From: an uncultured Spirochaetaceae bacterium
GTDB taxonomy: Bacteria > Spirochaetota > Spirochaetia > Sphaerochaetales > Sphaerochaetaceae
NCBI GenBank assembly: GCA_944389275.1
Contig: CALXLT010000042.1
Location: forward strand, 1 to 64,000
DNA length: 64,000 nt
Direction: 5' to 3'
The position numbers and the translations under genes are program-made. Numbering within the stretch: position 1 is the first letter of the stretch; each line of letters starts with the position of its first letter. Under the pieces are notes generated by a model that was not told where the DNA came from, made no database searches, and saw only the letters and a list, made by a program, of their open reading frames with translations. Shown here in pieces: positions 7,383 to 60,882 of this stretch.

Positions 7383-8540
7383 TTGCGCCAGGATAGGAAA
7401 CGGCAAAGGAAAGCAGCAGTGCCCAAGAGAGTAGGGAATCTCTATCAGACGATCACGAAGGATTACATCCGGTCCATAATATTGAAGGCCGCATCCGGAA
7501 GGGAGAGCAGGCCCGATATAAAGAAGACCATCGAGAATCTCGATGCCTGCGTCAATCGAGTCTATTCGATGCTCATGGATGATTCATATGTCCCCCATAA
7601 GCCAAGGGTGGTGACCATATATGACGTGAGTTCGCAGAAGTTCCGGAAGATACAGATGCTCCCGTTCTTCCCGGACTGCATCATCCAATGGATAGTCGTG
7701 GATCTCCTTATGCCGGTGCTCATGAAGAGCATGGATGCGTACAGCTGCTCATCGATTCCCGGCCGCGGTGGCCATAAGCTGTATAGGCATTTCCGCAGAT
7801 TCATAAGGCGGAAGCACAGGCATGCCCGATGCGCCGTTCAGATGGATATCCATCACTATTACGAGAGCATCGATATCGGCATCCTCATGGCCATGCTGAG
7901 AAGGAAGTGCAAGGATGAGCGCCTGCTGCGCCTTGTGGAGGTCATCCTCCGCAGCACAAGCCAGGACGGCAAGAGCCTTGCCATAGGCTTCTATCTCAAT
8001 CAGTGGCTCGCCAATTTCTATCTCCAGTCAACCGACAGGCTCATCCACCAGGGAGGAGCCGTCAGATGCTATGGGCGGTATATGGACAACATCACTTTCA
8101 TAGGTAGCAACAAGAGGAGGCTGAGGGCGAAGATGCGGGAGATCTGCGAGAGCGTCAAACGGATAGGCCTCAGCATAAAAGGCGATTACCAGCTATTTCC
8201 CCTGCAGGAGACGAGGAAGGCAAGGATATCCAGGCTGCGCAGGCAGGCGATGCGGCCGTCTTCCAGGAAACCGCTACTGCCGTGCTGCAGGGATCTCAGG
8301 GCTGTCGGCTTCCGCTTCTTCGGGACGGGAAGGATCGCGCTGAGGCGGCGCAACTGGCTCCGCCTGAGGAGGCAGATGATCAGGATCATGGCAAGGCTGC
8401 CGGCAATAGGCAGGAAAACGGCGATGAGCTTCCTGTCGAGATACGGGAACATCAAGCATACATCGGCATTCCGCATCCGTGCGGGATATATCAAGGCGCC
8501 CGAGATCAGGGCTGTGAAGAGGAGTCTGAAGGCAGCATGA
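7383..8540 (+). CDS. Diversity-generating retroelement reverse transcriptase
   Basis: This 385-residue protein has the compact length of retroelement reverse transcriptases. Motif A is AVQMDIHHYYESID with Asp155. The motif-B region is IGFYLNQWLANFYL (201-214), matching the IGxxxxQ-type variant of these enzymes rather than the usual QGxxxSP. Motif C reads YMDN (233-236) instead of YxDD, so the second aspartate is Asn. The C-terminus is rich in Arg and Lys. The start is TTG at 7383 after AGGAG with tight spacing; GTG at 7419 after AAAGGA is an alternative. It reverse-transcribes the TR RNA with errors at adenines and feeds the cDNA into the VR. No separate avd-type accessory gene is visible. 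Confidence 0.93.
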   Translation: MRQDRKRQRKAAVPKRVGNLYQTITKDYIRSIILKAASGRESRPDIKKTIENLDACVNRVYSMLMDDSYVPHKPRVVTIYDVSSQKFRKIQMLPFFPDCIIQWIVVDLLMPVLMKSMDAYSCSSIPGRGGHKLYRHFRRFIRRKHRHARCAVQMDIHHYYESIDIGILMAMLRRKCKDERLLRLVEVILRSTSQDGKSLAIGFYLNQWLANFYLQSTDRLIHQGGAVRCYGRYMDNITFIGSNKRRLRAKMREICESVKRIGLSIKGDYQLFPLQETRKARISRLRRQAMRPSSRKPLLPCCRDLRAVGFRFFGTGRIALRRRNWLRLRRQMIRIMARLPAIGRKTAMSFLSRYGNIKHTSAFRIRAGYIKAPEIRAVKRSLKAA

Positions 8541-18707: not shown

Positions 18708-18810
18708 AGTTATATACACTATGAATGAGTATTGAATTCCAAAGTTCACAATGCCTATAAGCTGTTTGATGAATATAATCAATGAACTATGGGTTATAAT
18801 CTATTCCATA

Positions 18811-21312
18811 ATGTTGCGGCCTAAGATTAAGCGGGTATGGAAGGATGAGATAAATCAGGATGCTTGCCTGGCGAAAACCGAAAGGATTGCCGGTATTGTG
18901 CAACCGGGAATGACTGTTGTCCAGCATTGTACTGCAACTGGAAGGATTTCTGAGGTCTTATCACAGCAATTCCCTTTTCTTGCAAGGCTCGGCTTATTTT
19001 TAGAGGGCTATCAACTGATCGCCTCATTGCATGATGTGGGAAAGATATCACCAACGTTCCAAACTAAGATAGCAAATGCATTACAACTTGAATCTGGAGA
19101 TTCCTTGCTGTCTTTGTTTGGGCTTAATGAATATAAGGAAAGCAAACCAAGTGATATACCGCATAGTGTCATAAGCTATTCAGCACTTAAGGATCTTCTG
19201 GGAAAGCAAGTTGCATATATTGAAGGTGCTCATCATGGATGGCTACAGGATGATAGATTTGCTGCGAATGCTGAAAGATTTGGCGGCGATGAATGGCAAA
19301 AGGCCAGGATTCGTTTTGTTGATGAAATGAAAAGCATATTTGGATGCGCCATACAGGATCTTTCGGGGTTTGATGCATCCATTATCCAATTTTTGCTGGG
19401 ACTGACTACAGTCTCCGATTGGATAAGCTCATCAATCGCTTTGAACGAGCTTGGTAGTAAAACAATATTCCTTGATTCTGTAGTTAAGTCTGGCTTTCAT
19501 GCTCATGAATATAAAGCAGGTCTTTCTTTTAAAGATATCTTTGGCTTTGATATGCGTCCTGAACAAGAGGCTTTTGTTGATAGTGTTAACGGTCCTGGGG
19601 TGTATATACTTGAAGCCGGAACAGGTTCCGGGAAGACCGAAGCCGCATTATATGCTGCATACAAGCTTTTATCAGCAGAAGAGGCCGAAGGAATCTATTT
19701 TGCATTGCCTACAACACTTACCTCACGTCATATCAAAAAGCGTGTTGATGCTTTTCTGAAAGCAATACTTGCAGAGGAATATATTCCTTCTAAACTTGTT
19801 TTCGGGAATTCCTTTCTGTACAACTGCGTGTTTGCTGATGGTTTTCCTGAATCTTCGTGGTTTGATTCTCGAAAACGTATGATATTGGCCCCATTCGGGG
19901 TAGGTACCATAGATCAGGCATTGATGAGCGTAATTTCCGTAAAGCATTCAGCTGTGCGTACATTCGGCTTGGCAGGAAAGGTTGTCATCCTTGATGAAGT
20001 ACATAGCTATGATAGCTATACAGGTTTGCTGATTGATGAGCTTATCAAGCAATTAAGGTCATTAGGCGCAACCGTGATCATATTGAGCGCAACATTGCAG
20101 AAATCAGTCAGGATGGAACTTATTGGAGCTCATGAAAGCGAAAATCTCTCCGATGCATATCCATCTGTCACGGTTAGCTCATGTGCGTCTATTAGAGAGA
20201 TAGCAGTAAAAGGAGATAAAAGAAAGACGATCTCACTTGTACATGAGAATGACAGGGAATCTGCAATTGATTCTGCGGTTGAGGATACCTTGGATGGACA
20301 ATATGTCCTTTGGATAGAAAATACAGTCGCAGATGCCCAGGATGCATATAGGAAGTTCTCCTCTAGGTGCTGGGGAGTTGCTGGAACAGGCCTTATCCAT
20401 TCCCGATTCCTAGGAAATGACAGAAGCCGGAAAGAGAATGAATACACAGCGATCTTCAGCAAGGAAAACTGGGATAAGCGAGGATTGGGAAAAGGCTTCA
20501 TACTTGTGGGAACACAGATTCTTGAGCAGTCTCTAGACATAGATGCTGACGTCCTGTATACGGCTATCGCGCCAATAGATATGGTTTTCCAGCGTATTGG
20601 CAGGTTATGGCGCCATGATCATCCCGGCAGAAGAGGGAAGCCTATCTGCCATTTGCTTCATCCTTCTGCTGAAGATGTACAGGATAACCCAGATGTACTT
20701 GGACCTAGTGCTGCAGTTTATTCAGGATACATATTATACCGGACAATTAAAGCATTGGAAAATACTGAAACGATTTCTGTGCCATATGAAATAAGATTGA
20801 AATTAGATGAAGTTTATAGTGATATAAATGAATATAATACTAAAATAATAAGTTTAAAAAATGAATTGATATCAAAAACATCAAAATTACGGAACCTTGC
20901 ATATAGATCAATTTCAAAGGTCGGTTCTGTTTTGTCTGACACTGCTTTGCCGAGATATTCGGAACTACGATATAAACGAGTTCTTCTTATCTCGAAAATC
21001 AAGCCAGAAGAAGGAAAGATATTGCTTATAGAGGGAGAGTGGATTGATCTTTTAAGGGCACAAGACCCACGAGAGAAGGCCATGATATCAATCCAGCTTG
21101 AGGAATCGATTATAAATGTTCCAGAAAGCAGCTGTCCTTCCCTTGTTAAATCCGAGAAAGCAGACGATATGCTATCTCGCTATATCTATGTTGATGATGA
21201 TTTCTACATAATGCTGAAGGGTGACGGACATCAGCTTTTCGATGTTTTCGGAAATTTGCTGGAAAAATGCCATTATGAGCCGAATCTAGGGTATTATCTT
21301 AGCAAGGAGTAA
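18811..21312 (+). CDS. cas3: CRISPR nuclease-helicase Cas3 (type I-E)
   Basis: The 833-residue protein has an N-terminal HD nuclease domain (SLHDVGKISPTFQ, His-Asp at 74-75; AHHGWL) and a superfamily 2 helicase domain: EAGTGSGKTEAALYAAY (motif I), VILDEVHSYD (II), LSATLQ (III), GTQILEQSLDID (V) and QRIGRLWRH (VI). It is recruited by Cascade to unwind and degrade target DNA. The ATG at 18811 was chosen because the family N-terminus begins near here; ATG at 18751 is possible. No good ribosome-binding site is visible for either. Confidence 0.96.
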   Translation: MLRPKIKRVWKDEINQDACLAKTERIAGIVQPGMTVVQHCTATGRISEVLSQQFPFLARLGLFLEGYQLIASLHDVGKISPTFQTKIANALQLESGDSLLSLFGLNEYKESKPSDIPHSVISYSALKDLLGKQVAYIEGAHHGWLQDDRFAANAERFGGDEWQKARIRFVDEMKSIFGCAIQDLSGFDASIIQFLLGLTTVSDWISSSIALNELGSKTIFLDSVVKSGFHAHEYKAGLSFKDIFGFDMRPEQEAFVDSVNGPGVYILEAGTGSGKTEAALYAAYKLLSAEEAEGIYFALPTTLTSRHIKKRVDAFLKAILAEEYIPSKLVFGNSFLYNCVFADGFPESSWFDSRKRMILAPFGVGTIDQALMSVISVKHSAVRTFGLAGKVVILDEVHSYDSYTGLLIDELIKQLRSLGATVIILSATLQKSVRMELIGAHESENLSDAYPSVTVSSCASIREIAVKGDKRKTISLVHENDRESAIDSAVEDTLDGQYVLWIENTVADAQDAYRKFSSRCWGVAGTGLIHSRFLGNDRSRKENEYTAIFSKENWDKRGLGKGFILVGTQILEQSLDIDADVLYTAIAPIDMVFQRIGRLWRHDHPGRRGKPICHLLHPSAEDVQDNPDVLGPSAAVYSGYILYRTIKALENTETISVPYEIRLKLDEVYSDINEYNTKIISLKNELISKTSKLRNLAYRSISKVGSVLSDTALPRYSELRYKRVLLISKIKPEEGKILLIEGEWIDLLRAQDPREKAMISIQLEESIINVPESSCPSLVKSEKADDMLSRYIYVDDDFYIMLKGDGHQLFDVFGNLLEKCHYEPNLGYYLSKE

Positions 21313-21317
21313 GCATC

Positions 21318-22799
21318 TTGGCTGATTCACGCTTCAATCTTGTCCATGAGAAGTGGATTCCTGCCGTAGGCAAGGGAAGGGTATCCTTATTGGATATCTT
21401 CTCAGATGATTCTATCCATGACCTTGCAGGAAATGCGATTCAGAAAATAGCGCTTATAAAGCTCTTTATAGCAATAGCCCAGGCTTCCTGTCGTCTTAAA
21501 GATGAAGAGGCCTGGAAAGAAACCGGGGTTAATGGCTTATCCGATAGGATAATCGATTATCTGCAAAGCCATGAGAGCTGTTTTTATCTTTATGGGGATA
21601 AGCCTTTCCTACAGATGCCCGTGCTTGCAGAAATCAAGGAGGCAAAGGTCCAGGAGATATATTTCGGATATCTTCCTGATCTAGCTTCAGAGAATGATTC
21701 ATTGCTTAGGCAGCTTCAGGATAAGTCTGAACTTGATGATGCGGATAAGGCTGTCTTCATTACCCAGCTGATGAACTATGCGCCAGGCGGGAAGCGTACA
21801 AGCTTCATCAAGCCGTTGTCACCTGGTTTCCAGACAAGAACCAAGAGCGCAAAGGCTGGTCCTAGCCTTGGAGGGACTAATGGATATCTCCAGACATGCT
21901 TGAAAGGCAATTCCATTAGAGAAACAGTATGGCTTAATTATTTTACTGATGATGATCTGATGGAGCTGCATGGAGGGCTCAGGCTTGATGTCAGACCTCC
22001 TTGGGAAAATATGCCAACCGGAGAAGCAGATAATAGGGCTAAGGAATTGCAATCTTCAGTGTACGCATGGCTTGTTTCCATCTCCCGCTTTGTGCTTCTT
22101 GATGATGGGGGAATAAGATATACGGAAGGTTTGCAGTATCCAAAGATCAAGGATGGTTATTATGAACCTTTTATAACAATCAGGAAGGAAGATAATGTGG
22201 CATTGTTTGCCGATCCTGCAAAGAAACCCTGGCGATCCTTTGTTGCTATGCTTCAGGCGGTATATGACGATTCATCGGAGTATTCATGCGATATCCTTCG
22301 CTTGTTCATGAGGCGTACCAAGGAGAATATGGATGTTTTCTCTGTGTGGTCAGGAGGTCTAAGGCTTAGGGCAAACAGCGGTGATCAAAGCGTTAAGCAA
22401 GACGATGATTACGTCGAATCGGAAGTGACTCTTGCAAGTGAGTTCATGGATTCCGACGGATATGGCCGCTTAGCTGAGGCTATGAAGAAGGTGGAAGGGT
22501 ATTCTGCTGGATTGCAGAAGGCAATCAAGGCATATTGCAGCCTGATTGATGATTCAACGGATATATCCGCAAAGGGCCGGAAGATGTATTGGCTTGCAGC
22601 TGAGCCATTGTCAAATGGACTCATCAACGCTTGCCTTTCTGATAACAACACAGAGATAGAGCTGATACTCAGTTCCATGAGGAAGATCGTAATTGATGTC
22701 TATGATTCTCTTTGTCCTCATGAAAGCGCAAGACAGATCCTGGTCTGGATGAAGAACAAGCCAATGAGAGGAGGTGTCGATCTTGGCAAGAAGCGATGA
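21318..22799 (+). CDS. cas8e: Cascade large subunit Cas8e (Cse1/CasA)
   Basis: The 493-residue protein has the family's typical opening FNLVHEKWIPA and mid-region MNYAPGGKRTSFIKPLSPG. It starts with TTG, supported by AAGGAG 8 bases upstream, 5 bases after the cas3 stop. Cas8e recognises the PAM and recruits Cas3. It forms Cascade with the four following gene products. Confidence 0.95.
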   Translation: MADSRFNLVHEKWIPAVGKGRVSLLDIFSDDSIHDLAGNAIQKIALIKLFIAIAQASCRLKDEEAWKETGVNGLSDRIIDYLQSHESCFYLYGDKPFLQMPVLAEIKEAKVQEIYFGYLPDLASENDSLLRQLQDKSELDDADKAVFITQLMNYAPGGKRTSFIKPLSPGFQTRTKSAKAGPSLGGTNGYLQTCLKGNSIRETVWLNYFTDDDLMELHGGLRLDVRPPWENMPTGEADNRAKELQSSVYAWLVSISRFVLLDDGGIRYTEGLQYPKIKDGYYEPFITIRKEDNVALFADPAKKPWRSFVAMLQAVYDDSSEYSCDILRLFMRRTKENMDVFSVWSGGLRLRANSGDQSVKQDDDYVESEVTLASEFMDSDGYGRLAEAMKKVEGYSAGLQKAIKAYCSLIDDSTDISAKGRKMYWLAAEPLSNGLINACLSDNNTEIELILSSMRKIVIDVYDSLCPHESARQILVWMKNKPMRGGVDLGKKR

Positions 22800-23286
22800 A
22801 TATGTGGATTATCTCTTCAGGAGATGTTCTGAAGATACAGGTTTCCGTGCTGATCTCAGGCGTGCTGATAATCCTTCATTTGAATGGCGTGTATGGCCTG
22901 TCATAATGAGCTTTGCAGGTAAGCTTGATTCTGATATGGTACGGCGATCATATGCTCTTATTGGATCTGCGATTGGAAAATCCAGGCAATCCGGCAATGG
23001 GGAAATCGGCATAGGAAAGGCTTTTCGTGTTATCTCTAAAGGCAAATCTGAAAACAAGCAGTTTCCTCCTAGATTGATTAGATTCCTTTCATGCGATGAT
23101 CTTCTGGATTTGATAGCCATACTCAGGCCAACCCTTTCTTATATGATTTCGGAAGGGATAGCCCTTGATTTCAAATGCTTATTGAAAGACCTATTAGCCT
23201 TCAGATATGAGGAGAATCGCGATCGCATCAAAGCCGCATGGGCAGCTGATTATCTAGGTGCAGAAGGAGATAATGATAATGAATGA
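22783..23286 (+). CDS. cse2: Cascade small subunit Cse2 (CasB)
   Basis: The 167-residue helical, basic protein matches Cse2 in size and position. The TTG at 22783 lies 8 bases after AGGAGG and overlaps cas8e by 17 bases; GTG at 22774 overlaps the Shine-Dalgarno sequence and is less likely. The QSGNGEIGIGKAFRVIS segment is family-like. Cse2 forms a dimer along the Cascade belly and stabilises the R-loop. Confidence 0.9.
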   Translation: MARSDEYVDYLFRRCSEDTGFRADLRRADNPSFEWRVWPVIMSFAGKLDSDMVRRSYALIGSAIGKSRQSGNGEIGIGKAFRVISKGKSENKQFPPRLIRFLSCDDLLDLIAILRPTLSYMISEGIALDFKCLLKDLLAFRYEENRDRIKAAWAADYLGAEGDNDNE

Positions 23287-23878
23287 TCTTTATCTCTCTC
23301 GATTGACTCTTCCTGTAAGGACCCGGCTGGTAAATCACATTGATGATTACTATTCGATCCATCAGTTTGTCTATGGCCTATTCCCGCAGGAGCGTGAGCG
23401 GAAGTTTCTGTACAGAACTGATTTTGATAATCTAGGGAATCTAGCTTTAACCATCCAATCAAGTGTATATCCATCCGATCCTGCAGTAGGTGAGATTCGG
23501 ACTAATCATATTCCATTGGATTTCCTGATGCAGGATAGGTACTTCTTCCGTCTGAGATTCGCTCCTGTCGTGAAATCAGACGGCAAGGTTATCCGAGTGG
23601 ATTCCAGAACAGATAAAGCTGTAGGCTGGCTCACTCAGCGTGCAAACCGCATTGGGGTTGCCTTTGAAGAGGACTCACTTGATAAGGAGTCATCTTTCAC
23701 GTTCAAGATGCGGCCAGGCAATGGCCGTGGAACCATAACCATCTCTTCCGTAGATATCATTGGGGTCTTTGATGTGACGGAAAGGGATAGTTTCATAGAT
23801 GCAATCAAGCAAGGTATTGGTCCTTATAAAGGATTTGGAATGGGACTGATGCAGCTCAAGCCAATAAAGGAGGATTGA
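23279..23878 (+). CDS. cas6e: CRISPR pre-crRNA endoribonuclease Cas6e (Cse3/CasE)
   Basis: The 199-residue protein has the tandem ferredoxin-like Cas6e layout. The catalytic-type histidine is seen in YYSIHQFVYGLFP (His28), and the C-terminal glycine-rich loop is GIGPYKGFGMGLMQL. It cuts the palindromic repeats of both arrays and stays on the crRNA 3' hairpin. It follows cse2 directly, whereas in E. coli-type operons cas6e comes after cas5e. ATG 23279 follows AAGGAG; ATG 23273 is too close to it. Confidence 0.93.
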   Translation: MNDLYLSRLTLPVRTRLVNHIDDYYSIHQFVYGLFPQERERKFLYRTDFDNLGNLALTIQSSVYPSDPAVGEIRTNHIPLDFLMQDRYFFRLRFAPVVKSDGKVIRVDSRTDKAVGWLTQRANRIGVAFEEDSLDKESSFTFKMRPGNGRGTITISSVDIIGVFDVTERDSFIDAIKQGIGPYKGFGMGLMQLKPIKED

Positions 23879-23880
23879 TA

Positions 23881-24954
23881 ATGAAGGATTATCGTGGAGT
23901 CAAGATCGAGTATCATATCCTGCAGTCATTTCCTGTGACATGCCTGAATAGGGATGATGTCGGAGCTCCTAAGACAGCTATTGTCGGCGGTGTAGAAAGA
24001 GGCCGTATAAGCAGCCAATGCTGGAAAAGGCAAGTAAGATTGGCATTGCGCGATCTTGATATACATATTGCTGTCAGGACAAAGAAGATTGCTGAGCTTA
24101 TCGAGGCACACTGCACAGGAGATGTCTCAGAAGAAAAGCAGAAGTTCATAAAGAAGATTGCAGAGATCCTCCCAAAGGATACTTTGCTCTTTATCTCTGA
24201 TAGTGAAGTCAAGGCCCTTGCCAACTATGTCGACAAAGAGTTCAAGCCAGGGGCGAAGGAACAGCCAAAGGATCTTGATAAGATTATTTCCAAAGAAATC
24301 AAAAAGGCTGGAAAGAAAGGATTTGCGGATCTTGATGGCCTTGATATCGCTTTGTTCGGTCGAATGGTCGCGAATGCTGTCGATCTAAATGTCGAGGCTG
24401 CAAGCTCCTTTTCACATGCAATCACGACTCATCGCATATCTTCCTCTGTTGATTTCTTCACTGCAGTTGATGACTTCGTAAGCGGAAATGATAAAGCAAG
24501 TGCTAAACATCTCGGATCGTCTGAATTCACATCAGGCACATATTATCGCTATATATCGCTGGATCTAGGCATGCTTGCAGATACATTAGGGGATGATGCT
24601 GATATAGCTAAGGCAGTAGATGCATTCACGAAAGCGCTCTATGTTGCTGTTCCCGCAGCACGTCAGACGACTTTCGCTGGGTACTGTCCTTGGAATTATG
24701 CTCATGTCTATGTTCGGAAAGGACAGTGTTTGCAGCTTTCATTCGACAAGCCTGTGATTTCAAGAGGCGAGGGATATGCCAAGCCAAGCATAGAAGCAAT
24801 GGAGGCTGCTCTGGATAGGAATGAGAAGTTGATGGGATCCCTGTTCCAGAAAATAGGAGAATTCACTTATGGGGATTCTGATGAATATGGGATAGATGAT
24901 CTTTGTTCAGATCTGCAGGATGCATTATCGAGTCTTCCTGATAAGGAGTCATGA
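23881..24954 (+). CDS. cas7e: Cascade backbone subunit Cas7e (Cse4/CasC)
   Basis: The 357-residue protein has the Cas7e opening (YHILQSFPVTCLNRDDVGAP) with the GRISSQCWKR motif, and STFAG-like VPAARQTTFAGYCPW later. AAAGGAGG lies 7 bases before the ATG. Six copies form the crRNA-binding backbone of Cascade. Start and stop overlap neighbours by a few bases, indicating one operon. Confidence 0.95.
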   Translation: MKDYRGVKIEYHILQSFPVTCLNRDDVGAPKTAIVGGVERGRISSQCWKRQVRLALRDLDIHIAVRTKKIAELIEAHCTGDVSEEKQKFIKKIAEILPKDTLLFISDSEVKALANYVDKEFKPGAKEQPKDLDKIISKEIKKAGKKGFADLDGLDIALFGRMVANAVDLNVEAASSFSHAITTHRISSSVDFFTAVDDFVSGNDKASAKHLGSSEFTSGTYYRYISLDLGMLADTLGDDADIAKAVDAFTKALYVAVPAARQTTFAGYCPWNYAHVYVRKGQCLQLSFDKPVISRGEGYAKPSIEAMEAALDRNEKLMGSLFQKIGEFTYGDSDEYGIDDLCSDLQDALSSLPDKES

Positions 24955-25643
24955 TGTCCCATTATGCTTTGTTGTGGCTTGAAGGACCTCTTCAGGCCTG
25001 GGGATATGATTCGAAATTCAGCTTGAGGACAACCCTCAGCTTCCCTACGCGATCCGGTGTGTTGGGCCTTTTGCTCTCGGCCATGGGAGCAGGAGGACCT
25101 CAAGTTGAATTGCTGAGGAGATTCAAAGGCTTGCCGCAGTATGTCTATTCATATTCAACTCAGAGCGCTGCTCCCTCTGAAATGGTAGATTATCAGGTAG
25201 TGGGAAATGGATATAAGTCGACAGGCTGGGAGTCAAGGATGATTCCGAAGAAGCGTGACGGTGGGAATTCTGTTGGCGGAGGAGCGAAACTGACCTATAG
25301 GCATTACCTCCAAGATGCGGCTTTCGCCGTTATCCTGGAACTTCCTGAGGGTCTTGAGAAAACCATAGAGGATTCTCTTCAGAATCCAGTTTGGCCTTTA
25401 TTCCTGGGCCGTCGGACCTGCATACCTTCTGCTCCTGTCTTTTGCGGTATTTATGACAGTATTGAGAAAGCTGAAGCTGCTAAGGACGAGAGGAGCGATG
25501 GTTATATAGAGCAATTCCATGTTATTGAAGGTCGATGTCCCGAAGATGGAGAGGTATTGGTCCTGAATGACATACCGATAGCATTCGGCGAACATAAGCA
25601 ATATGAATCGAGGTATGTAACGATAATAGAAAGCGATGCCTGA
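24954..25643 (+). CDS. cas5e: Cascade subunit Cas5e (CasD)
   Basis: The 229-residue protein shows the Cas5 signature: LLWLEGPLQAWG followed by TLSFPTRSGVLGLLLSAMG. It binds the crRNA 5' handle. The ATG at 24954 has AAGGAG at 5 bases; the one at 24951 is two bases from it. The gene overlaps cas7e and cas1e. Confidence 0.94.
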   Translation: MSHYALLWLEGPLQAWGYDSKFSLRTTLSFPTRSGVLGLLLSAMGAGGPQVELLRRFKGLPQYVYSYSTQSAAPSEMVDYQVVGNGYKSTGWESRMIPKKRDGGNSVGGGAKLTYRHYLQDAAFAVILELPEGLEKTIEDSLQNPVWPLFLGRRTCIPSAPVFCGIYDSIEKAEAAKDERSDGYIEQFHVIEGRCPEDGEVLVLNDIPIAFGEHKQYESRYVTIIESDA

Positions 25644-26487
25644 TAATAGACTTATCATCAAGATAACCCATGATAACCTCCCGCAGATCAAAGATAGATA
25701 TCCTTTTCTTTATCTTGAGCGTGGACGGATTGAGATTGACGATAGCTCTGTCAAATGGATAGATTCGCAGAACTTCGTTGTCAGGCTACCGATAGCTACG
25801 ATTGGTACGATATTGTTAGGGCCTGGGACTTCGGTAACCCATGAGGCGATCAAGGTGATGTCCGCAGCAAATACAACTGTCTGCTGGGTTGGAGAGGATA
25901 GCTTGCTATTCTATGCAATAGGGCAGAGTCCGACATCTGACAGCAGGTTTATGAGACAGCAGATGTCCTTGGCTTCTTCTCCTGATACCAGAACACAGGT
26001 AGCCAGGCGGATGTTTGCTGAGCGTTTTCCTGATGATGATATATCAACAGCAAGCATTCACGATCTTATGGGTAAGGAAGGATTACGGGTACGGGCTTTA
26101 TATGAGGAAAAGGCTAGGGAATATGGCGTCGGATGGAAAGGCCGCAGGTATGTCCCCGGACAGTTCGAGCTTAGTGATATCACCAATAAGATCCTTACAG
26201 CAGCAAACACAGCTTTATATGCCTTGGTTCTTTCTGTTGTTTTCTCGATAGGTTTCTCTCCTTATATTGGATTTGTCCATACAGGAAGTCCTTTACCATT
26301 TGTATATGATATAGCGGATTTGTATAAGGCAGATCTTTGCATAGATTTCGCTTTCTCTATGACTGCAAGGTTCGCAGGGGATTATGATCGGAAAGCATTG
26401 CTTGACGAGTTCAGGAAAAGAGTATCTGAACATATGCTCTTGGAGCGTATGCCAGATGACATCAAAAGAATTATCGGAGGCCAATGA
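25636..26487 (+). CDS. cas1: CRISPR integrase Cas1e
   Basis: The 283-residue protein has the Cas1e N-terminal beta domain (DRYPFLYLERGRIE) and the helical catalytic domain with Glu in ALYEEKAREYG, His in GFVHTGSPLPFVYDIADLYK and Asp in the same motif, the metal-binding triad. With Cas2 it inserts new spacers at the leader ends of the arrays. The whole triad is intact, so adaptation should be functional. Confidence 0.96.
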   Translation: MPDNRLIIKITHDNLPQIKDRYPFLYLERGRIEIDDSSVKWIDSQNFVVRLPIATIGTILLGPGTSVTHEAIKVMSAANTTVCWVGEDSLLFYAIGQSPTSDSRFMRQQMSLASSPDTRTQVARRMFAERFPDDDISTASIHDLMGKEGLRVRALYEEKAREYGVGWKGRRYVPGQFELSDITNKILTAANTALYALVLSVVFSIGFSPYIGFVHTGSPLPFVYDIADLYKADLCIDFAFSMTARFAGDYDRKALLDEFRKRVSEHMLLERMPDDIKRIIGGQ

Positions 26488-42827: not shown

Positions 42828-43508
42828 TCAAATGCCCCCGAATCTCCGGTCTCTTTTATTGAAGTCCTCGATGATCGTATCGATCATGGATTCGTCCCAA
42901 TCAGGCCAAAGTCTATCATAGAATCCGATTTCTGCATAGCTTGCTTGGAGAAGTAGGAAGCCGGAAAGCCTTCTTTCTCCGCTGCTTCGGCATATATAGT
43001 CGGGAGATGGGATGTCCGGATTGTCCACATAGGAGAGAAGAGTGCTGAAGGATATATCCTTCTCGCCGCTTGCGATGGCCCTTCTGACGCACCTCTCGAT
43101 CTCATCCTCGCCGCCATAATCTATGGCAAGCTGGAGCGTCATCCCCTTGTTCTCCCTTGTCCTCTCTACGGCCTTGTCCAGGCGCGAGAGGAGGGAGGAG
43201 GGGAGGCGGTCCCTGCGTCCGAGATGGACGATGCGGATGTCTTCGCTCCCTATCTTCTCCAATAGGCTCTCGAATTCTGAAGAGAAGAGGCCCATGATGG
43301 AGTCTATCTCCGCCTTGGGCCTTTTCCAATTCTCTGTGGAAAAACAGAAGAGAGTGAGATAGCCTATGCCCCTTCTTGAAGCCGCGAGCACTACGTCAGC
43401 TGCCGCTTTGGCTCCCGCCTTGTGGCCTTCGGAGCGCGGGAGAGAGCGAAGCTTCGCCCATCTTCCGTTTCCGTCCATTATCAAGGCAAGGTGCATAAGC
43501 TTTCCCAT
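42828..43508 (-). CDS. uppS: Undecaprenyl diphosphate synthase
   Basis: The 226-residue protein has LALIMDGNGRWAK with the catalytic Asp, GHKAGAKA, FSTENWKRP and the C-terminal PDYICRSSGERRLSGFLLLQ. It makes the C55 carrier used for peptidoglycan and other envelope polymers. Its usual SGExRLSNFLLWQ motif has small changes (GFLLLQ). It lies between frr and cdsA as in other bacteria. Confidence 0.95.
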   Translation of the reverse strand: MGKLMHLALIMDGNGRWAKLRSLPRSEGHKAGAKAAADVVLAASRRGIGYLTLFCFSTENWKRPKAEIDSIMGLFSSEFESLLEKIGSEDIRIVHLGRRDRLPSSLLSRLDKAVERTRENKGMTLQLAIDYGGEDEIERCVRRAIASGEKDISFSTLLSYVDNPDIPSPDYICRSSGERRLSGFLLLQASYAEIGFYDRLWPDWDESMIDTIIEDFNKRDRRFGGI

Positions 43509-53990: not shown

Positions 53991-54111
53991 TGACACTTTG
54001 CAGAATAAGTGTAATTTTATATGAGTTTTCAATTTGTTCTTGCTTATTTATGGATGCTAGTGTAGAGTTGTGGCAAGAAATGGGATGAATTCCCATGGAA
54101 TGGTGGAAATG

Positions 54112-54564
54112 ATGCAGCTGCTTACTGGGATGTACAATGCAAGGTTTGATGACAAAGGCCGTCTTTCCCTGCCTTCGCGTCTCCGTACCGCTCTTGCATC
54201 TGAACAGGTTGTTGTTCTTCCAGGATTGGATGAAAACCACTTGATGCTGATGACTCCTGAGTATTTCGAGAAGGAATTCTCCGGGCCTATTCTCTCATCC
54301 CCAATGGCTATGCTCGATAAGAAGAAACGTATCCTTATCAGAAAGCTCATATCACCAGCACAGTACGTTGACATCGACAGCTCTGGAAGAATCAACATCC
54401 CCCTTAAGGACAGGGAGCGCTATTCCCTGCCCAATAAGGGAGAAGCTCTCCTTATCGGCACTGGATATGCGGTGGAGATCTGGAATCCGGAAGTATTCGA
54501 TTCCTTCTCGGACGACGAGTCCATCGCAGATCTTGTCCAGGGCATCTATGAGGAGAGAGAGTGA
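54112..54564 (+). CDS. mraZ: Transcriptional regulator MraZ
   Basis: The 150-residue protein has two AbrB-like halves: TGMYNARFDDKGRLSLPSRLR and the second SSGRINIPLKDRERYSLPNKG. ATG 54112 was chosen for its GGTGG spacing; ATG 54109 and GTG 54070 are alternatives. MraZ binds repeated sites in its own promoter and controls the division cluster. The stop overlaps rsmH. Confidence 0.94.
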   Translation: MQLLTGMYNARFDDKGRLSLPSRLRTALASEQVVVLPGLDENHLMLMTPEYFEKEFSGPILSSPMAMLDKKKRILIRKLISPAQYVDIDSSGRINIPLKDRERYSLPNKGEALLIGTGYAVEIWNPEVFDSFSDDESIADLVQGIYEERE

Positions 54565-55451
54565 TGGAGATCGTCCATTACCCGGTGCTGCATGAGGAAG
54601 TGCTCGCGAATCTTCCGATAAAGGATGGGGATTCGCTCATGATCGACTGCACCACGGGCGAGGGCGGGCATACATCGCTCTTCCTGTCCAGGTATCCGGA
54701 TCTGAAGGTCATCGGATTGGATAGGGACCGCGTGATACAGCAGAAGGCCATCGAGAGGCTCCGTCCTTTCGGCTCCCGCTTCACGCCGGTGCTCTCATCC
54801 TTCGATGATTACCTCGAGTCCGCCGCACCGGACATAGCTGATGCGATCCTCTTCGACCTTGGGATAAGCATGTTCCATTACGTCGAGAGCGAGAGGGGGT
54901 TCTCATTCAGGCGGGACGAGAAGCTTGACATGAGGCTCAATCCGGAAGAGGGCATCAGCGCGGCAGACATCGTGAATGGGTACCAGGAAGAAGCGCTGGC
55001 GGATGTGATCTACCGCTACGGCGAGGAAAGGTATTCAAGGCGCATTGCACGGGCCATAGTGGCAAGGCGCCAGGAGAAGGCTATCGAGCGCTCGGCAGAG
55101 CTGGCGGAGATAATAGCCGGAGCCGTTCCCCGTGAGTACAGGTACGGACGCATACATCCAGCGACCCGGACGTTCCAGGCTTTGAGGATCGAAGTCAATG
55201 GCGAGCTCTCAAGGATAGAACCAGCCTTGAGAAGCGCCATAAGGGTCCTCAGGAAGGGTGGAAGGATAGGAGTGATAACCTTCCACTCGCTTGAGGACAG
55301 GATCGTCAAATGGTTCTTCAAGGATGAGGCGGCGAAGGAGGATCCTGAGATCAGGATCATCACCAAGAAGCCGATCGTCCCATCCGAGAAGGAAGAAGAG
55401 GAGAACGCGCCCTCGAGAAGCGCGAAGCTAAGGGTAATAGAGAAGATCTGA
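54564..55451 (+). CDS. rsmH: 16S rRNA (cytosine1402-N4)-methyltransferase
   Basis: The 295-residue enzyme has the SAM-binding segments DCTTGEGGHTSLFL and GLDRD, LFDLGISMFHYVESERGFSF, and the terminal FHSLEDRIVKWFF. It methylates 16S rRNA at C1402. ATG overlaps the mraZ stop after GAGAGAG. Confidence 0.96.
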   Translation: MEIVHYPVLHEEVLANLPIKDGDSLMIDCTTGEGGHTSLFLSRYPDLKVIGLDRDRVIQQKAIERLRPFGSRFTPVLSSFDDYLESAAPDIADAILFDLGISMFHYVESERGFSFRRDEKLDMRLNPEEGISAADIVNGYQEEALADVIYRYGEERYSRRIARAIVARRQEKAIERSAELAEIIAGAVPREYRYGRIHPATRTFQALRIEVNGELSRIEPALRSAIRVLRKGGRIGVITFHSLEDRIVKWFFKDEAAKEDPEIRIITKKPIVPSEKEEEENAPSRSAKLRVIEKI

Positions 55452-55459
55452 GGTGTCTT

Positions 55460-55714
55460 ATGAAGGATATTGAAATCAACAGAAACGTAACCAGGCCAGT
55501 GAAGTGCCTTATCATCGCGATGCTTTCCCTTATGTTCCTTGTTACCCTTATCCCTCTCTGGCAGATGGGGGCCAGGAGCAACGCTGCGGCCACGCTTGCC
55601 GCGGTCAAGGCTGATATCACGGATATCGACAGGGAAGGAAGGGCCCTCAGGGCGGCGGTCGCCGCGGGGCTACCCGAGGCTGAAGGCGAATTTCTTCTCA
55701 GCGCATCTATTTGA
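55460..55714 (+). CDS. ftsL: Cell division protein FtsL
   Basis: The 84-residue protein has a short cytoplasmic N-terminus, one membrane helix at about 17-35 (CLIIAMLSLMFLVTLIPLW) and a short coiled-coil periplasmic part (ATLAAVKADITDIDREGRAL). Sequence is weakly conserved in this family, so the call rests on topology and position after rsmH. In other bacteria ftsI follows; here ftsW follows directly. Confidence 0.75.
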   Translation: MKDIEINRNVTRPVKCLIIAMLSLMFLVTLIPLWQMGARSNAAATLAAVKADITDIDREGRALRAAVAAGLPEAEGEFLLSASI

Positions 55715-55738: not shown

Positions 55739-56911
55739 ATGACTATGCCAAGGATACCCGCTGAACGAAGCTATGATGATATAACCTACAAGGCAGGGGA
55801 TAACCGGGTGAACGCATCCGGTTCATTCTCTCCTTTCACATTTCTCTGCATCACGCTTATCCTGACCCTTCTGGGGCTTGTGGTGCTCTACAGCGCCTCC
55901 TACACGAAGGCGATCTCTCTTGGCTATCCTCATTACCATTACTTCGCGCTTCAGTCCATAAGCGCTGCCGTGGCTGTCATCGCGGGCGTCTTCATATCGA
56001 TGCTTCCCTCGCGCCTTATCGCGAAGGGATGGACCGTGCTCCTGCCTCTCTCCATCCTTGCCATGATCCTCACGTTTGTCCCGGGCTTCTTCTTCGGCGG
56101 CATGCTGCGGGTCATGGGCGTGCCGGTCGTGCAGCCGGGTTCCCTCGCTATCCTCGCGACTGTATTCGTGATCTCATCCCTTCTTTCGTTCAGCAAGGAT
56201 GAGCGTGAGGCAAGGCATGTTGTGGCCGCGTCAGTCTTCCTTATCGTCATCGAGCTCCTTGTCCTCTTCTCATGCGGCGTCTCATGGTTCACGATAAACT
56301 CGCTTATTATCCTGCTGATGCTCAGACGCTGCCGCGTCCCGCGCTCAGCTGTGGTGCTCACGCTCCTTTTCATGCTTGTAACGGGAGTCGCGGCTTCCAT
56401 CATCTTCCCATATCTACTATCCCCGGTCCTCTCGTCCGTGCTGCCGGTTACGGACAGCTCGCTGTACGACCAGGCGCTTATCGCCTCATGCAACGCGATC
56501 GCGGATGGCGGTATAGCCGGAGCAGGGCTTGGATCCGGGCTTTATAAGCTCGGGGAGCTGACAAGTCCTGAGTCCCAGTTCATTTTCGCAGTTTTCGCGG
56601 AGGAGCTCGGCATAGTCGGCGCCGCTTTCCTCCTTATCCTTTTCATACTGTACCTTGTCATAGGCATAAGGACATCCTCCAGGAGCCTTGATAAGGAGGA
56701 TGGGGTGACTGCGTCGCTGAGCTACGGGCTTTCGCTCATGATAGCCCTCAAGGCCCTCTTTGACATGCTCTATGTCCTTGGCGTCCTGCCTCTTTCAGGC
56801 ATAATGCTTCCTTTCTTCAGCTATTCCGTATCGGAGGAGGCGATAACGATGCTCTCCTCTGCCGTACTATATAGGCTCGTGTACAGGATGGGGAGGGAGC
56901 ATGAGTCCTGA
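55739..56911 (+). CDS. ftsW: FtsW-type SEDS protein lacking the catalytic aspartate
   Basis: The 390-residue protein has ten hydrophobic helices and SEDS landmarks (LVVLYSASY, GAGLGSGLYKLG, IFAVFAEELGIVGA). The catalytic Asp of FtsW glycosyltransferases, in the PEAHTDFIFA-type loop, aligns with Gln280 in SPESQFIFA without a gap. The QPSE-type motif is QPGS (132-135). The enzyme is therefore probably inactive as a glycan polymerase. The genes ftsI, murF and mraY that often surround ftsW are absent. A TATAAT at 55731-55736 ends 2 bases before the start. Confidence 0.88.
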   Translation: MTMPRIPAERSYDDITYKAGDNRVNASGSFSPFTFLCITLILTLLGLVVLYSASYTKAISLGYPHYHYFALQSISAAVAVIAGVFISMLPSRLIAKGWTVLLPLSILAMILTFVPGFFFGGMLRVMGVPVVQPGSLAILATVFVISSLLSFSKDEREARHVVAASVFLIVIELLVLFSCGVSWFTINSLIILLMLRRCRVPRSAVVLTLLFMLVTGVAASIIFPYLLSPVLSSVLPVTDSSLYDQALIASCNAIADGGIAGAGLGSGLYKLGELTSPESQFIFAVFAEELGIVGAAFLLILFILYLVIGIRTSSRSLDKEDGVTASLSYGLSLMIALKALFDMLYVLGVLPLSGIMLPFFSYSVSEEAITMLSSAVLYRLVYRMGREHES

Positions 56912-57461
56912 TAGGAAAGCCCTTGCCGCCTCAGCTCCTCTGATCTTCCTTTTCCTCATAGCTTCATTCTCCCATCTGGGAGGCATGAGGATAGGCGATG
57001 TGGAGATCGACCATCCTACGCCCTCGATCGAGGGCATGCTTCTCCCTCTCAAGGGAATGTCCTTTCTTTCCAGCAGCCGCGTTGACGTGGAGCGGAGGAT
57101 AGAAGGGCTTCCATATGTCGAGAGCGTCAGGACAGAGCTTATCGACGGAAGGCTTGCGGTAAGGGCAGGGTACAGGGCTGATGGGATAATCGCGCTATCG
57201 GAAAAGGGTGCGTATATTGTCTTCCCGGATTCTGCAGAGCCTCTGGCGCTGAGGGATATCCCAGCGCTTCTTGCAGTCTATACGTCTGTCACGCTGGGCG
57301 CTGAGGCCTACGATTTCTTCGTTCGGTTCGGCTTTGATCATGACTTCTTCACAAGAGAGGCGGGGGAAAGCGCTCAGCCATCTTCCATCCGCCATGCTCT
57401 TGATGTTAATGTAAGCGATATGGGGGCAGTGTACGCGCTGCCTGCAGGTATTGAGAGGTAG
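56901..57461 (+). CDS. ftsQ: Cell division protein FtsQ/DivIB-like
   Basis: The 186-residue protein has one N-terminal membrane helix (APLIFLFLIASFSHLGG) and a POTRA-like stretch (SRVDVERRIEGLPYVESVRTEL) typical of FtsQ. It is shorter than the usual 240-280 residues and lacks much of the beta domain that binds FtsB/FtsL. It overlaps ftsW by 11 bases and lies before ftsA. Confidence 0.8.
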   Translation: MSPDRKALAASAPLIFLFLIASFSHLGGMRIGDVEIDHPTPSIEGMLLPLKGMSFLSSSRVDVERRIEGLPYVESVRTELIDGRLAVRAGYRADGIIALSEKGAYIVFPDSAEPLALRDIPALLAVYTSVTLGAEAYDFFVRFGFDHDFFTREAGESAQPSSIRHALDVNVSDMGAVYALPAGIER

Positions 57462-57465
57462 GGCG

Positions 57466-58698
57466 TTGGTTTCTGATAAGACTCTTGTTGGACTTGATAT
57501 AGGTACTAGCTGGGTTCGCGCTGCGATAGGTTCCGTCTCGCGCGATGGCAATCTGATGATCGAGGCGATCTCGGAGCGCGCGAGCGATGGAGTCAGATCC
57601 GGCTCCATCGTGAATATCGAGCAGACGCTCAAGGTGATAAATGCCGTGATATCCGACGCCGAGCTGCAGGCCGGTACCGAAGTCTCCTCGATGATACTCG
57701 GTGTAGGAGGCGACCATATAAGGGGCATACAGTCATCCGGCGTCGTCGGCATCCAGAGCAAGGACCAGGAGATAAAGCGCGAGGACATAAGGCGCTCGAT
57801 AGATGTCGCCAGGGCCAGGGAGCTTCCGAAGGATACGGAGATAATCCATACCCTTGTCCAGGATTTCCAGGTCGATTCAAGATCCGGCATCAAGGACCCG
57901 ATCGACATGCTCGGCCATAGGCTCGATACCAGCGTGCTGCTTGTGACAGGCTCATCCTCGATCTGCCAGAACCTCCGAAAATGCGTGCAGAAGGCGGGGC
58001 TCCAGGTGCAGAGGATGGTGCTGCAGAGCCTCGCGGACAGCGAGGTCGTGCTCGCTCCGGATGAGAAGGAGATGGGCGCTCTCGTCATAAACATCGGCTC
58101 AGGCACGACCAATGCCATAGCGTATGTCCAGGGCGCTCCTGTCTACTGCGGAGGCATCCCTCTTGGCGGGGATAATGTCACCGGGGATATCGCGTATATG
58201 CTCCAGCTTCCGCGCGCCGCGGCAGAATCGCTGAAGATATCAGATGGCTGCTGCCATACTCCATCGGTCTCCGATTCAGAGATGATCATAACCCCGGCTG
58301 TCGGAGGCAAGCCTTCCATCAGGCTTCCGAAGAAGGAGCTCGCGAAGCTCATCGAGCCAAGGATGGCCGAGATATTCTCGATGCTCTCTGGGGAGATGGA
58401 GAAGAGGGAGGTGTCAGGCACGTTCGGAGCAGGCATAATCCTCGTGGGTGGAGGCTCGCTGCTTTCCGGCGCGACGGAGCTTGCTTCCGAGATATTCAGG
58501 ATGCCTGCGCGCATAGGCTTCCCTGAGGCCATCAACGGACTGGACAGGATGTACATCGATCCAAGGTATTCCACGCTGCTTGGGCTGCTGAAGATCGAGG
58601 CAAAGAAATACAGGGAGAACCCGAATCTCGGACAGCCTTCGAAGGAGAAGGCGGGGCTCGGCGGCAAGGTCAGGAATTTCTTCGGAAAGCTATTTTGA
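57466..58698 (+). CDS. ftsA: Cell division protein FtsA
   Basis: The 410-residue actin-like ATPase begins at TTG 57466 ([20 protein letters not shown]), preceded by GAGAGGTAGGG. TTG 57451 is further up and less likely. [20 protein letters not shown] and [20 protein letters not shown] form the nucleotide site. The C-terminal amphipathic helix [10 protein letters not shown] anchors it to the membrane. It tethers FtsZ. Confidence 0.94.
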
Positions 58699-58708
58699 GA
58701 GGTGCACC

Positions 58709-59992
58709 ATGGGTATGGATTTTGATATTTTCGACATTGAGGACGCAACGGCAACGGAACAGGCTGCCCCGACGATCATAAAGGTCGTAGGAGTCGGCGG
58801 AGGCGGCGGCAACGCCGTCAACAGGATGATCGCTTCAGGCTTGAGGAAGGTTTCCTTCATAGCTCTCAATACCGATGTCCAGGCGCTACAGCGCTCGAAT
58901 GCCCAGACGCGCATAGCTATCGGAAAGGAGCTGACTGGAGGGCTTGGCGCCGGCGGCATTCCCGAGATCGGCGAGAAGGCGGCGCTGGAATCCAAGGAGG
59001 AGATCAAGGCTGAGCTCGAGAACTCGGACATGATCTTCATCACGGCCGGAATGGGCGGAGGAACCGGCACTGGAGCCGCTGCAGTTGTCGCGGAGATCGC
59101 CAAGTCATGCGGCGCCCTTACTGTGGCTGTCGTCACGACTCCGTTCGCGTTCGAAGGCAAGAAGAAGCTCCTTCTTGCCCAGCAGGGCATAGAGAAGCTC
59201 CGCAAGCAGGTCGATACGCTCATTCTCATCCCTAACCAGCATCTGCTCAAGGTCGTGGAGAACAACACCCCGATAAAGCAGGCGTTCCTCATCGCGGACA
59301 GCGCTCTCCTGCAGTCCGTGCAGGGCATTTCCGACCTCATAACGGAGCCAGGCGAGATCAACATAGACTTCGCTGACGTGAAGACCGTCATGAAGGGCAA
59401 GGGAGACGCGCTTATAGGGCTTGGCTTCGGTGAGGGCGAGAACAGGGCTGTCGATGCCGCGAAGCTCGCTATCTCCAATCCTCTTCTGGAGAACGCCAGC
59501 ATAGACGGAGCTAAGTCTGTCCTTGTCAACCTCGCGGGCGGCGATAACCTCACGCTCCAGGAATACCAGGATGTAGTCGAGCTTATAACCGAGAACTGCG
59601 CTGAGGATGCCCTTATCATAGCGGGACAGAGCTACAACCAGAGCCTTGGCGACAGGATCAAGGTAACCGTGGTCGCTACCGGATTCGAGGAAAGGCAGGC
59701 TTCCACCATAGTGGAGCCGGAGACCGAGGTCTTCAGGAGAAGGGAAGAGGCACCAGCTTCCCCTGTCCATGAGAGCGCCCCGGCAGAACCGGTACAGCCG
59801 CAGGCGCAGCCCCAGCCAGAGGCAAGGCCGCAGAAGCCTGTCGAGCGTCAGGGCGCAGATCCATCCACGATAACAGTCAACAGATGGCAGGACCTGCAGA
59901 TGCAGCTTGGAAAGCGCAGCGGATCGCAGAGCGATTACTCCATCCCTGCTGTCCTCAGGTACTCACGCCATGACGAGGATGAGGATAAGTGA
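58709..59992 (+). CDS. ftsZ: Cell division protein FtsZ
   Basis: The 427-residue tubulin homologue has the T1 loop [12 protein letters not shown], the GTP signature [12 protein letters not shown], and the T7 loop in [12 protein letters not shown] Pro/Gln/Glu-rich linker at about 340-395 leads to the C-terminal peptide YSIPAVLR that binds FtsA. GAGGTGCACC precedes the ATG. Confidence 0.97.
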
Positions 59993-60882
59993 CCTCCCTT
60001 CTGAAAAGGTTCGATGATTTCATAATCTTCACAAGACGCCTCTCTGAGAAAACCAGAGAGGTTTATTCAATGGACGCGAGGCTCTATCTTGAATACCTTG
60101 ACGAGAGCGGCATAAGGCTGGAGGACGCCGGGGTGGAGGAGATAGAGTCCTATCTTATATGGCGGCGGCGCACGGGGAAGCTTGAGGAGCGGACGGAGGG
60201 GCGCATACTCTCTTCCCTCAGGGCATTCTATCTCTTCCTGTCCTCAGAGGGGCTTTCCGGGAAGAATCCAGCCACTCTTGTGGAAAAGCCAAAGGAGAGC
60301 GCCCATCTTCCGCGCGTCATAAGCGAGGATGAGGTTGATGAGCTGCTCTCCTCATTCCCTTCCTCCGATCCTCTCTCCCAGCGCGATTACACGCTATTCG
60401 AGCTCATATACTCCTCTGGCATGAGGATCTCCGAGGCTGTAGCGCTTGATGTCTCGTCATACAGGAGGGACGAGAGCACCATCGCGGTTATCGGGAAGAG
60501 GGACAAGGAGCGACTCGTGTTCATCGGAGAGATAGCGTCAGCAGCGCTTGATAGATATCTTGAGGAGGTGAGGCCGCTTCTTCTGAAGGATGAGAAGGAG
60601 AAGGCCTTGTTCCTGAACAGGCGGGGCGGAAGGCTTACGAGGCAGGCCGCACATAAGCGCTTCCATGAGGCTGTTGGGAAGCTCGGGATCGACGCGACGG
60701 TACACACGCTCCGGCACTCATTCGCGACCCATATGATAGAGCATGGCGCTGATATCCGAAGCGTGCAGGAGATGCTCGGCCACAGCGATGTGCGCACTAC
60801 CCAGATCTACACGCACCTCGACACTTCATCCATCCTGGCCTTCTTCGACAAGTACTCTCCGCTGGGGGATGACGATGATTGA
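59989..60882 (+). CDS. xerC: Tyrosine recombinase, XerC/XerD-like
   Basis: The 297-residue protein starts at GTG overlapping the ftsZ stop. A SAM-like N-domain ([20 protein letters not shown]) is followed by the catalytic domain with Arg in SGMRISEA, Lys in [28 protein letters not shown] with the nucleophile Tyr. It resolves chromosome dimers at dif. A second Xer starts at 63751; which is C and which is D is not clear. Confidence 0.88.

Follow-up and report, generated by a model that had tools for sequence, protein, structure and literature searches.

An FtsW with an apparently dismantled active site is kept beside FtsL and FtsQ in Sphaerochaetaceae that appear to lack peptidoglycan synthesis

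The FtsW protein of an uncultured Spirochaetaceae bacterium is probably a pseudoenzyme orthologue, retained alongside FtsL and FtsQ in a structural module of the divisome, a role that we infer from gene content, alignments, and patterns of constraint. It is encoded in a 64,000-nucleotide stretch of DNA (the window, meaning the whole stretch that was analyzed), and the features of this stretch that bear on the argument are as follows.

54070-54564, + strand: mraZ (Pfam, 58.5 bits)
54561-55451, + strand: rsmH (mraW) (Pfam and NCBIfam)
55460-55714, + strand: ftsL-like gene, 84 aa (position, and a family profile that picks up ORFs at the ftsL position in walled kin)
55739-56911, + strand: ftsW, SEDS family, 390 aa, active site apparently dismantled (ORF, PF01098, alignments)
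55772-55780, + strand: N-terminal YDD motif of FtsW, residues 12-14 (alignment)
56132-56143, + strand: FtsW residues 132-135, QPGS, corresponding to the QPSE motif of walled kin (alignment)
56576-56578, + strand: FtsW codon 280, CAG for Gln, at the catalytic-Asp position (alignments to E. coli D297 and Thermus RodA D255)
56901-57461, + strand: ftsQ-like gene, 186 aa (family profile that recovers the FtsQ-type POTRA protein of the walled locus L093)
57451-58698, + strand: ftsA (Pfam and NCBIfam)
58709-59992, + strand: ftsZ (Pfam and NCBIfam)
59989-60882, + strand: gene for a xerD-like recombinase, a conserved downstream neighbor (Pfam, NCBIfam, locus comparison)
42828-43508, - strand: uppS, polyprenyl diphosphate synthase (TIGR00055, 211.7 bits; cut-off, 109.55)

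The protein scores 137.4 bits against Pfam PF01098 (curated cut-off, 26.4) and is thus a member of the SEDS family. Its best NCBIfam match is ftsW (TIGR02614; 153.7 bits), below the equivalog cut-off of 337.5, and it is identified as FtsW by its descent and its place in the dcw cluster, not by the NCBIfam threshold. It is homologous over about 350 residues to 25hr (phmmer, E = 1.4e-15), and an AlphaFold model of low confidence (pLDDT, 46), too poor to carry weight, places its helices in an order compatible with the ten-helix SEDS fold. The genes are ordered mraZ-rsmH-ftsL-like-ftsW-ftsQ-like-ftsA-ftsZ-xerD, such that ftsW lies between ftsL and ftsQ and upstream of ftsA-ftsZ. The ftsL-like and ftsQ-like products have no Pfam match; the ftsQ family profile recovers the POTRA-domain protein of the walled locus at 29 bits, over the cut-off, and the wall-less proteins at 18.7 to 20.5 bits, below it. 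A sequence-only reading of this DNA had reported that ftsI and all mur genes are missing from the division cluster, and the ORF list, Pfam, and NCBIfam searches agree. Elsewhere in the window are a type I-E-like CRISPR-Cas operon (18751-26487) coding for Cas3, Cse1, CT1975 (Cas7), Cas5, and Cas1, a reverse-transcriptase-domain ORF (7383-8540; 385 aa, 33.9 bits), and, at the window start, an open frame of at least 1370 aa with no Pfam match (3-4145).

In phmmer alignments Gln280 of the window FtsW falls on D255 of Thermus RodA 6BAR and on the catalytic Asp of P. aeruginosa FtsW; a separate alignment puts it on D297 of E. coli K-12 FtsW. The earlier proposal that Gln stands at the catalytic Asp and QPGS replaces QPSE is borne out; the Gln codon is CAG, and none of the three references gives the window protein an Asp at this site. 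Directly before QPGS there is a deletion, in which the G-A/S-R-R-W stretch of walled kin is gone. Site 280 is Asp in all 43 walled-kin FtsW proteins examined (43 of the 64 available, being the 30 highest scoring and 13 chosen for genus coverage), whereas among wall-less FtsW proteins it is Asp in just 6/48 (6/49 in the set mapped to E. coli) and Glu in 10/48. The 29 g1-type proteins, comprising 28 of the window's genus, g1, and the named relative L002, have E (7), D (6), Q (4), M, T, S, and I (2 each), and L, A, V, and K (1 each) at this position; the 19 other wall-less proteins have K (8), P (4), E (3), R (2), and Y (2).

The change goes beyond the catalytic Asp. Sixteen E. coli FtsW residues at which mutation is reported to be dominant-negative and non-complementing (PMC8765783) were mapped onto the alignment, and at 12 of the 16 conservation among the 43 walled kin reaches at least 90%. 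Of these 12, walled proteins retain 10 to 12, the 29 g1-type proteins 1 to 4, the 20 other wall-less proteins 0 to 3, and the window protein 3. E. coli R137, W138, R246, and E150 are absent from 49/49 wall-less FtsW proteins, such that those retaining the Asp are altered too; E150 is not dominant-negative in E. coli. Judged from these alignments, the active site is dismantled in all 49 wall-less FtsW proteins examined, and the window FtsW can hardly be a normal SEDS polymerase. Other parts remain: G257-K270, E288/E289, and PFFS are still conserved in wall-less FtsW, with PFFS nearly fixed in every group. An N-terminal [YF]DD motif is present in 28/29 g1-type proteins (a contig end truncates the one exception) and in 17/20 other wall-less proteins (one of the three misses is truncated), compared with 22/43 walled ones.

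The peptidoglycan pathway was surveyed in 119 genomes of the window's family, drawn evenly from a larger group (120 requested), with profiles for the transpeptidase, MraY, Mur ligase, MurG, MurJ, and class A glycosyltransferase. Fifty-three genomes, in genera g1 (the window's own, with all of its 28 genomes), g7, g8, g9, g11, g13, g14, and g19, are wall-less candidates, "wall-less" being a designation by gene content. The PF01098 scores of the 119 genomes fall, fragments aside, into two sets of 27 to 146 and 164 to 310 bits, and the low set consists of g1 (28/28 genomes), g7, g8, g9, g11, g13, and g19. The transpeptidase domain is found in 0/53 wall-less candidates versus 59/66 other genomes, and MraY in 0/53 versus 63/66; among the 66, only G005, of uncertain status, is without both. 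For MurG, matches in walled kin reach about 76 to 275 bits; none among the 53 exceeds 52.5, and most of these lie in the C-terminal half. Walled kin mostly have four to six Mur-ligase matches per genome and the 53 have none to two, several showing two Mur-ligase-type matches rather than one; the common match in wall-less genomes is taken as FolC. The highest-scoring Mur-ligase hit overall (160 bits; C62:3437-4000) is in a wall-less candidate with 4% contamination (G064), and its contig is probably foreign. MurJ is over the cut-off in 61/119 genomes, all walled among the matches listed; a full-length MurJ-like protein (86 to 106 bits) is present in five g1 genomes, where a remnant lipid-handling step may survive, and G112 has a 48-bit match. 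All five of these genomes (G085, G074, G097, G078, and G052; loci L043, L045, L054, L060, and L061) have Asp or Glu at site 280.

By gene content the wall-less candidates are peptidoglycan negative, with no transpeptidase, MraY, or class A match and with MurG, MurJ, and Mur ligase at background apart from a few exceptions. Completeness is at least 90% for 30 of the 53 and at least 95% for 20. Across the class, the transpeptidase is found in 259 of 295 genomes (minimum completeness in the request, 90%) and in 105/111 genera; the six genera without it equal the number expected from g1, g7, g8, g9, g14, and g19 alone, with 20 of the 36 match-less genomes listed. On this gene content, the peptidoglycan pathway appears to be lost, as far as tested, in the window's genus and in the other wall-less genera. 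The class A glycosyltransferase is found in none of the 119 genomes, walled members included, and FtsW is thus probably the sole glycan polymerase in the walled members. Nearly all SEDS-bearing genomes have a single SEDS protein, and wall synthesis, even in the walled members, seems to rely on a single SEDS protein and one transpeptidase. An OmpA-like peptidoglycan-binding domain occurs in 1/119 genomes and is uninformative, as it is missing from walled members as well.

The genome from which the window derives (57 contigs, 87.7% complete) fits this pattern. Profile searches of it found no second SEDS protein (PF01098) and no transpeptidase domain (PF00905), and thus neither the second FtsW/RodA nor the class B PBP that would speak for an ordinary synthase; MraY has no match, and MurG has just a 26.6-bit match to its C-terminal part. 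The sequence-only reading gave weight to the absence of ftsI, which is indeed gone, but the loss spans the peptidoglycan pathway as far as tested. Its premise that Sphaerochaeta genomes lack penicillin-binding proteins fails for the walled genera: the transpeptidase is present in the 59 walled-side genomes counted above, Sphaerochaeta coccoides is counted with one transpeptidase in PMC4423922, and the window genome belongs to another, wall-less genus. It is highly improbable that some peptidoglycan is still made from unrecognized or salvaged precursors and polymerized by FtsW. The Asp kept in six wall-less proteins, the G064 Mur-ligase match, and the capacity of metagenome-assembled genomes such as this one to miss genes could be read that way, but the 30 candidates of at least 90% completeness are still without MraY or transpeptidase, no class A glycosyltransferase is found in any genome of the survey, and R137, W138, R246, and E150 are gone from every wall-less FtsW examined.

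The distribution of wall-less genera points to more than one loss. A tree of RsmH, FtsA, and FtsZ (53 rows, mixture model) was built with rows of 600 residues or fewer left out and with 11 long-branch, near-duplicate, or truncated loci removed beforehand (L112, L113, L114, L087, L090, L076, L089, L046, L069, L065, and L081); g7 and g14 have long branches and were not placed. The sister of genus g1 is the one walled g12 genome included (100/99), with the g8/g9/g11/g13/g19 group at another place in the tree. The set constrained together in the AU test was fixed by gene content ahead of any tree, and a single loss for g1 and g8/g9/g11/g13/g19 is rejected (p-AU, 2.3e-6). Unless peptidoglycan was regained, its loss thus appears to have occurred at least twice, and it seems that FtsW was kept and disarmed each time.

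Within these lineages ftsW is retained in 48/53 wall-less candidates, with no internal stops. The ftsL position and ftsW are about 2.5 kb apart in walled kin, with a Mur ligase gene and mraY between them; in wall-less genomes both of these genes are gone from that place, and ftsL, ftsW, and ftsQ adjoin. An assembly, frameshift, or misalignment artefact has a negligible chance of accounting for this. The genomes are probably mostly metagenome assemblies, as three uncultured relatives suggest, but the same uninterrupted cluster recurs in tens of independent assemblies of different species and the alignment is backed by independent references; we reject an artefact on the number of independent genomes. 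Among the five candidates without FtsW, two may be incomplete: G028 is broken by a contig end beside ftsQ, and G039 is also without an FtsZ match. None of the three g14 genomes has a SEDS match (PF01098). In the two of these that show sequence upstream of ftsA, ftsL, ftsW, and ftsQ are all absent at the ftsA-ftsZ locus, and in the third (G043) the contig begins within ftsA. The g14 division machine seems to erode further; in G013 (L114:8486-10302), a locus without ftsL, ftsW, and ftsQ, FtsZ is a highly divergent protein of 280 aa with 60.8 bits to the Tubulin/FtsZ GTPase domain.

Purifying selection on wall-less FtsW persists. Ratios of dN/dS (Nei-Gojobori, own script; 14 wall-less pairs) are 0.03 to 0.29 in 13 pairs and the 14th is saturated, the ratios being rough in several pairs with dS above 1.5. 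FtsA and FtsZ evolve more slowly than FtsW, and ftsQ reaches a dN/dS of about 0.41. At like RsmH distance, wall-less FtsW diverges faster than walled-kin FtsW, and constraint is therefore relaxed overall. It has also moved. Segment rates were expressed relative to the mean of each protein for 30 walled, 26 g1-type, and 14 other wall-less sequences (after 80% thinning), with segment borders that are approximate, as they come from the low-confidence helix assignment. From walled kin to g1 the relative rate falls in the N-tail (1.68 to 0.93), TM1 (0.92 to 0.64), and ECL1 (1.10 to 0.73), and it rises in ECL2 (0.75 to 1.22), the catalytic loop (0.42 to 0.97), ECL5 (0.32 to 0.83), and ECL5b (0.06 to 1.05). 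Constraint in g1 FtsW has thus moved to the N-tail and TM1/ECL1, with the catalytic loops now free to vary. The N-tail rate also falls in the second wall-less group, to 1.07, and TM1 is nearly flat (0.92 to 0.90).

These patterns also bear on the notion that FtsW is a decaying relic, retained merely through its place in a tightly packed essential operon. The faster divergence, the loss of FtsW in g14, and the position of g7 FtsW close to the detection limit (27.7 bits) are consistent with decay, but the low dN/dS ratios and the open frame in 48 genomes are not, and in g1 the N-tail and TM1 are more conserved than in walled kin even in absolute rate (0.59 versus 0.86 and 0.41 versus 0.47, respectively). 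Moreover, mur genes did leave this same operon, so removal is possible, and we regard a relic as distinctly unlikely.

We note that uppS is kept though MraY and MurG were not found, which implies that the lipid carrier is still made. The gene sits between frr and cdsA, and the carrier presumably serves another glycan. A polyprenyl-linked substrate for FtsW is thus possible, which counts against a structural module, and FtsW might have taken up a different polyprenyl-linked sugar (e.g., of an envelope glycan) as an enzyme or as a transporter, rather than being a pure scaffold. The conservation of G257-K270, E288/E289, and PFFS and the Asp or Glu in the five genomes with a full-length MurJ-like protein would also suit such a role. 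A new enzyme, however, should fix a new site, and the catalytic position holds 14 different residues in 48 proteins, and the outer loops show no newly fixed acid or base; repurposing is unlikely.

The structural module remains the reading that fits best, and in this respect the earlier suggestion that FtsW serves as a scaffold or in another role is sustained, the scaffold itself being the inferred part. Matches are missing for the Mur ligase and mraY that walled kin have between ftsL and ftsW, for ftsI, and for the rest of lipid II synthesis as tested. FtsW remains next to FtsL and FtsQ, with the cytoplasmic N-tail, TM1, and first outer loop staying conserved in g1. An FtsQ-FtsL-FtsW membrane module might couple the FtsA/FtsZ ring to the membrane, or stabilize or signal constriction, with no glycan made. 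In the cryo-EM structure of P. aeruginosa FtsWIQBL, FtsL contacts TM1 and EC1 of FtsW (PMC7614612), and catalytically dead E. coli FtsW is reported still to localize and to recruit FtsI and FtsN (PMC8765783). The absence of ftsL, ftsW, and ftsQ together from the g14 ftsA-ftsZ locus favors a module; the small TM1 shift in the second wall-less group, the Asp or Glu that some wall-less proteins keep, and the overall relaxation of constraint count against it.

Compared with the FtsWI/FtsWIQBL septal synthase of E. coli and P. aeruginosa, the window FtsW shares its homologous region and its ftsL-ftsQ place in the dcw cluster, but is without the catalytic Asp, the R-W of ECL2, R246, the QPSE Glu, and the ECL5 glycines, and its genome is without a detected FtsI partner or lipid II pathway. 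Mollicutes are wall-less and have no peptidoglycan pathway. Peptidoglycan-negative intracellular species (PMC5814848) likewise lack the pathway; here, however, FtsW is kept. The dead E. coli mutants (D297A and others) are missing the same active-site residues and still localize and recruit partners, but they are laboratory forms that block division, whereas the dead form here is natural and the only copy (PMC8765783). Sphaerochaeta and Bullifex, presumably members of the window's family, are likewise described as coccoid and without rodA, but both retain murA-G and mraY, with a transpeptidase in S. coccoides (PMC7738495, PMC4423922); one account gives murA-G, murJ, and mraY as present and just the PBP1a, 2, and C homologues as absent (PMC7738495). 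In Clostridioides difficile a dcw-encoded SEDS/bPBP pair acts in sporulation only, also an FtsW-type protein freed from vegetative division, but there the pair is still enzymatically active and the cell has a wall (PMC10693644). Literature searches of open PubMed Central papers turned up no report of peptidoglycan loss in the window's family or of FtsW kept without peptidoglycan; subscription papers fall mostly outside that scope, and the priority of the finding is not proven.

FtsW is regarded as the septal glycan polymerase. Because dead FtsW blocks division in walled cells, it is difficult there to tell whether the protein has a non-enzymatic role that is essential as well. Lineages without the substrate, with the active site dismantled and the gene under selection, would amount to a separation of the two roles by evolution and may show which residues serve the second one. 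They would also form a graded series, from walled kin through wall-less genera with a disarmed FtsW to g14 without ftsL, ftsW, and ftsQ at the ftsZ locus, and the wall-less keepers of FtsW contradict the pattern, as described in PMC5814848, that peptidoglycan-negative bacteria are without it. We lean slightly toward the stronger proposal that at least two wall-less lineages independently kept the FtsQ-FtsL-FtsW module with FtsW now a dedicated, non-enzymatic part of constriction whose working surface consists of the N-tail (YDD) and TM1/ECL1. If this is true, a core function of FtsW that is independent of glycan, and masked in walled bacteria, would become exposed.
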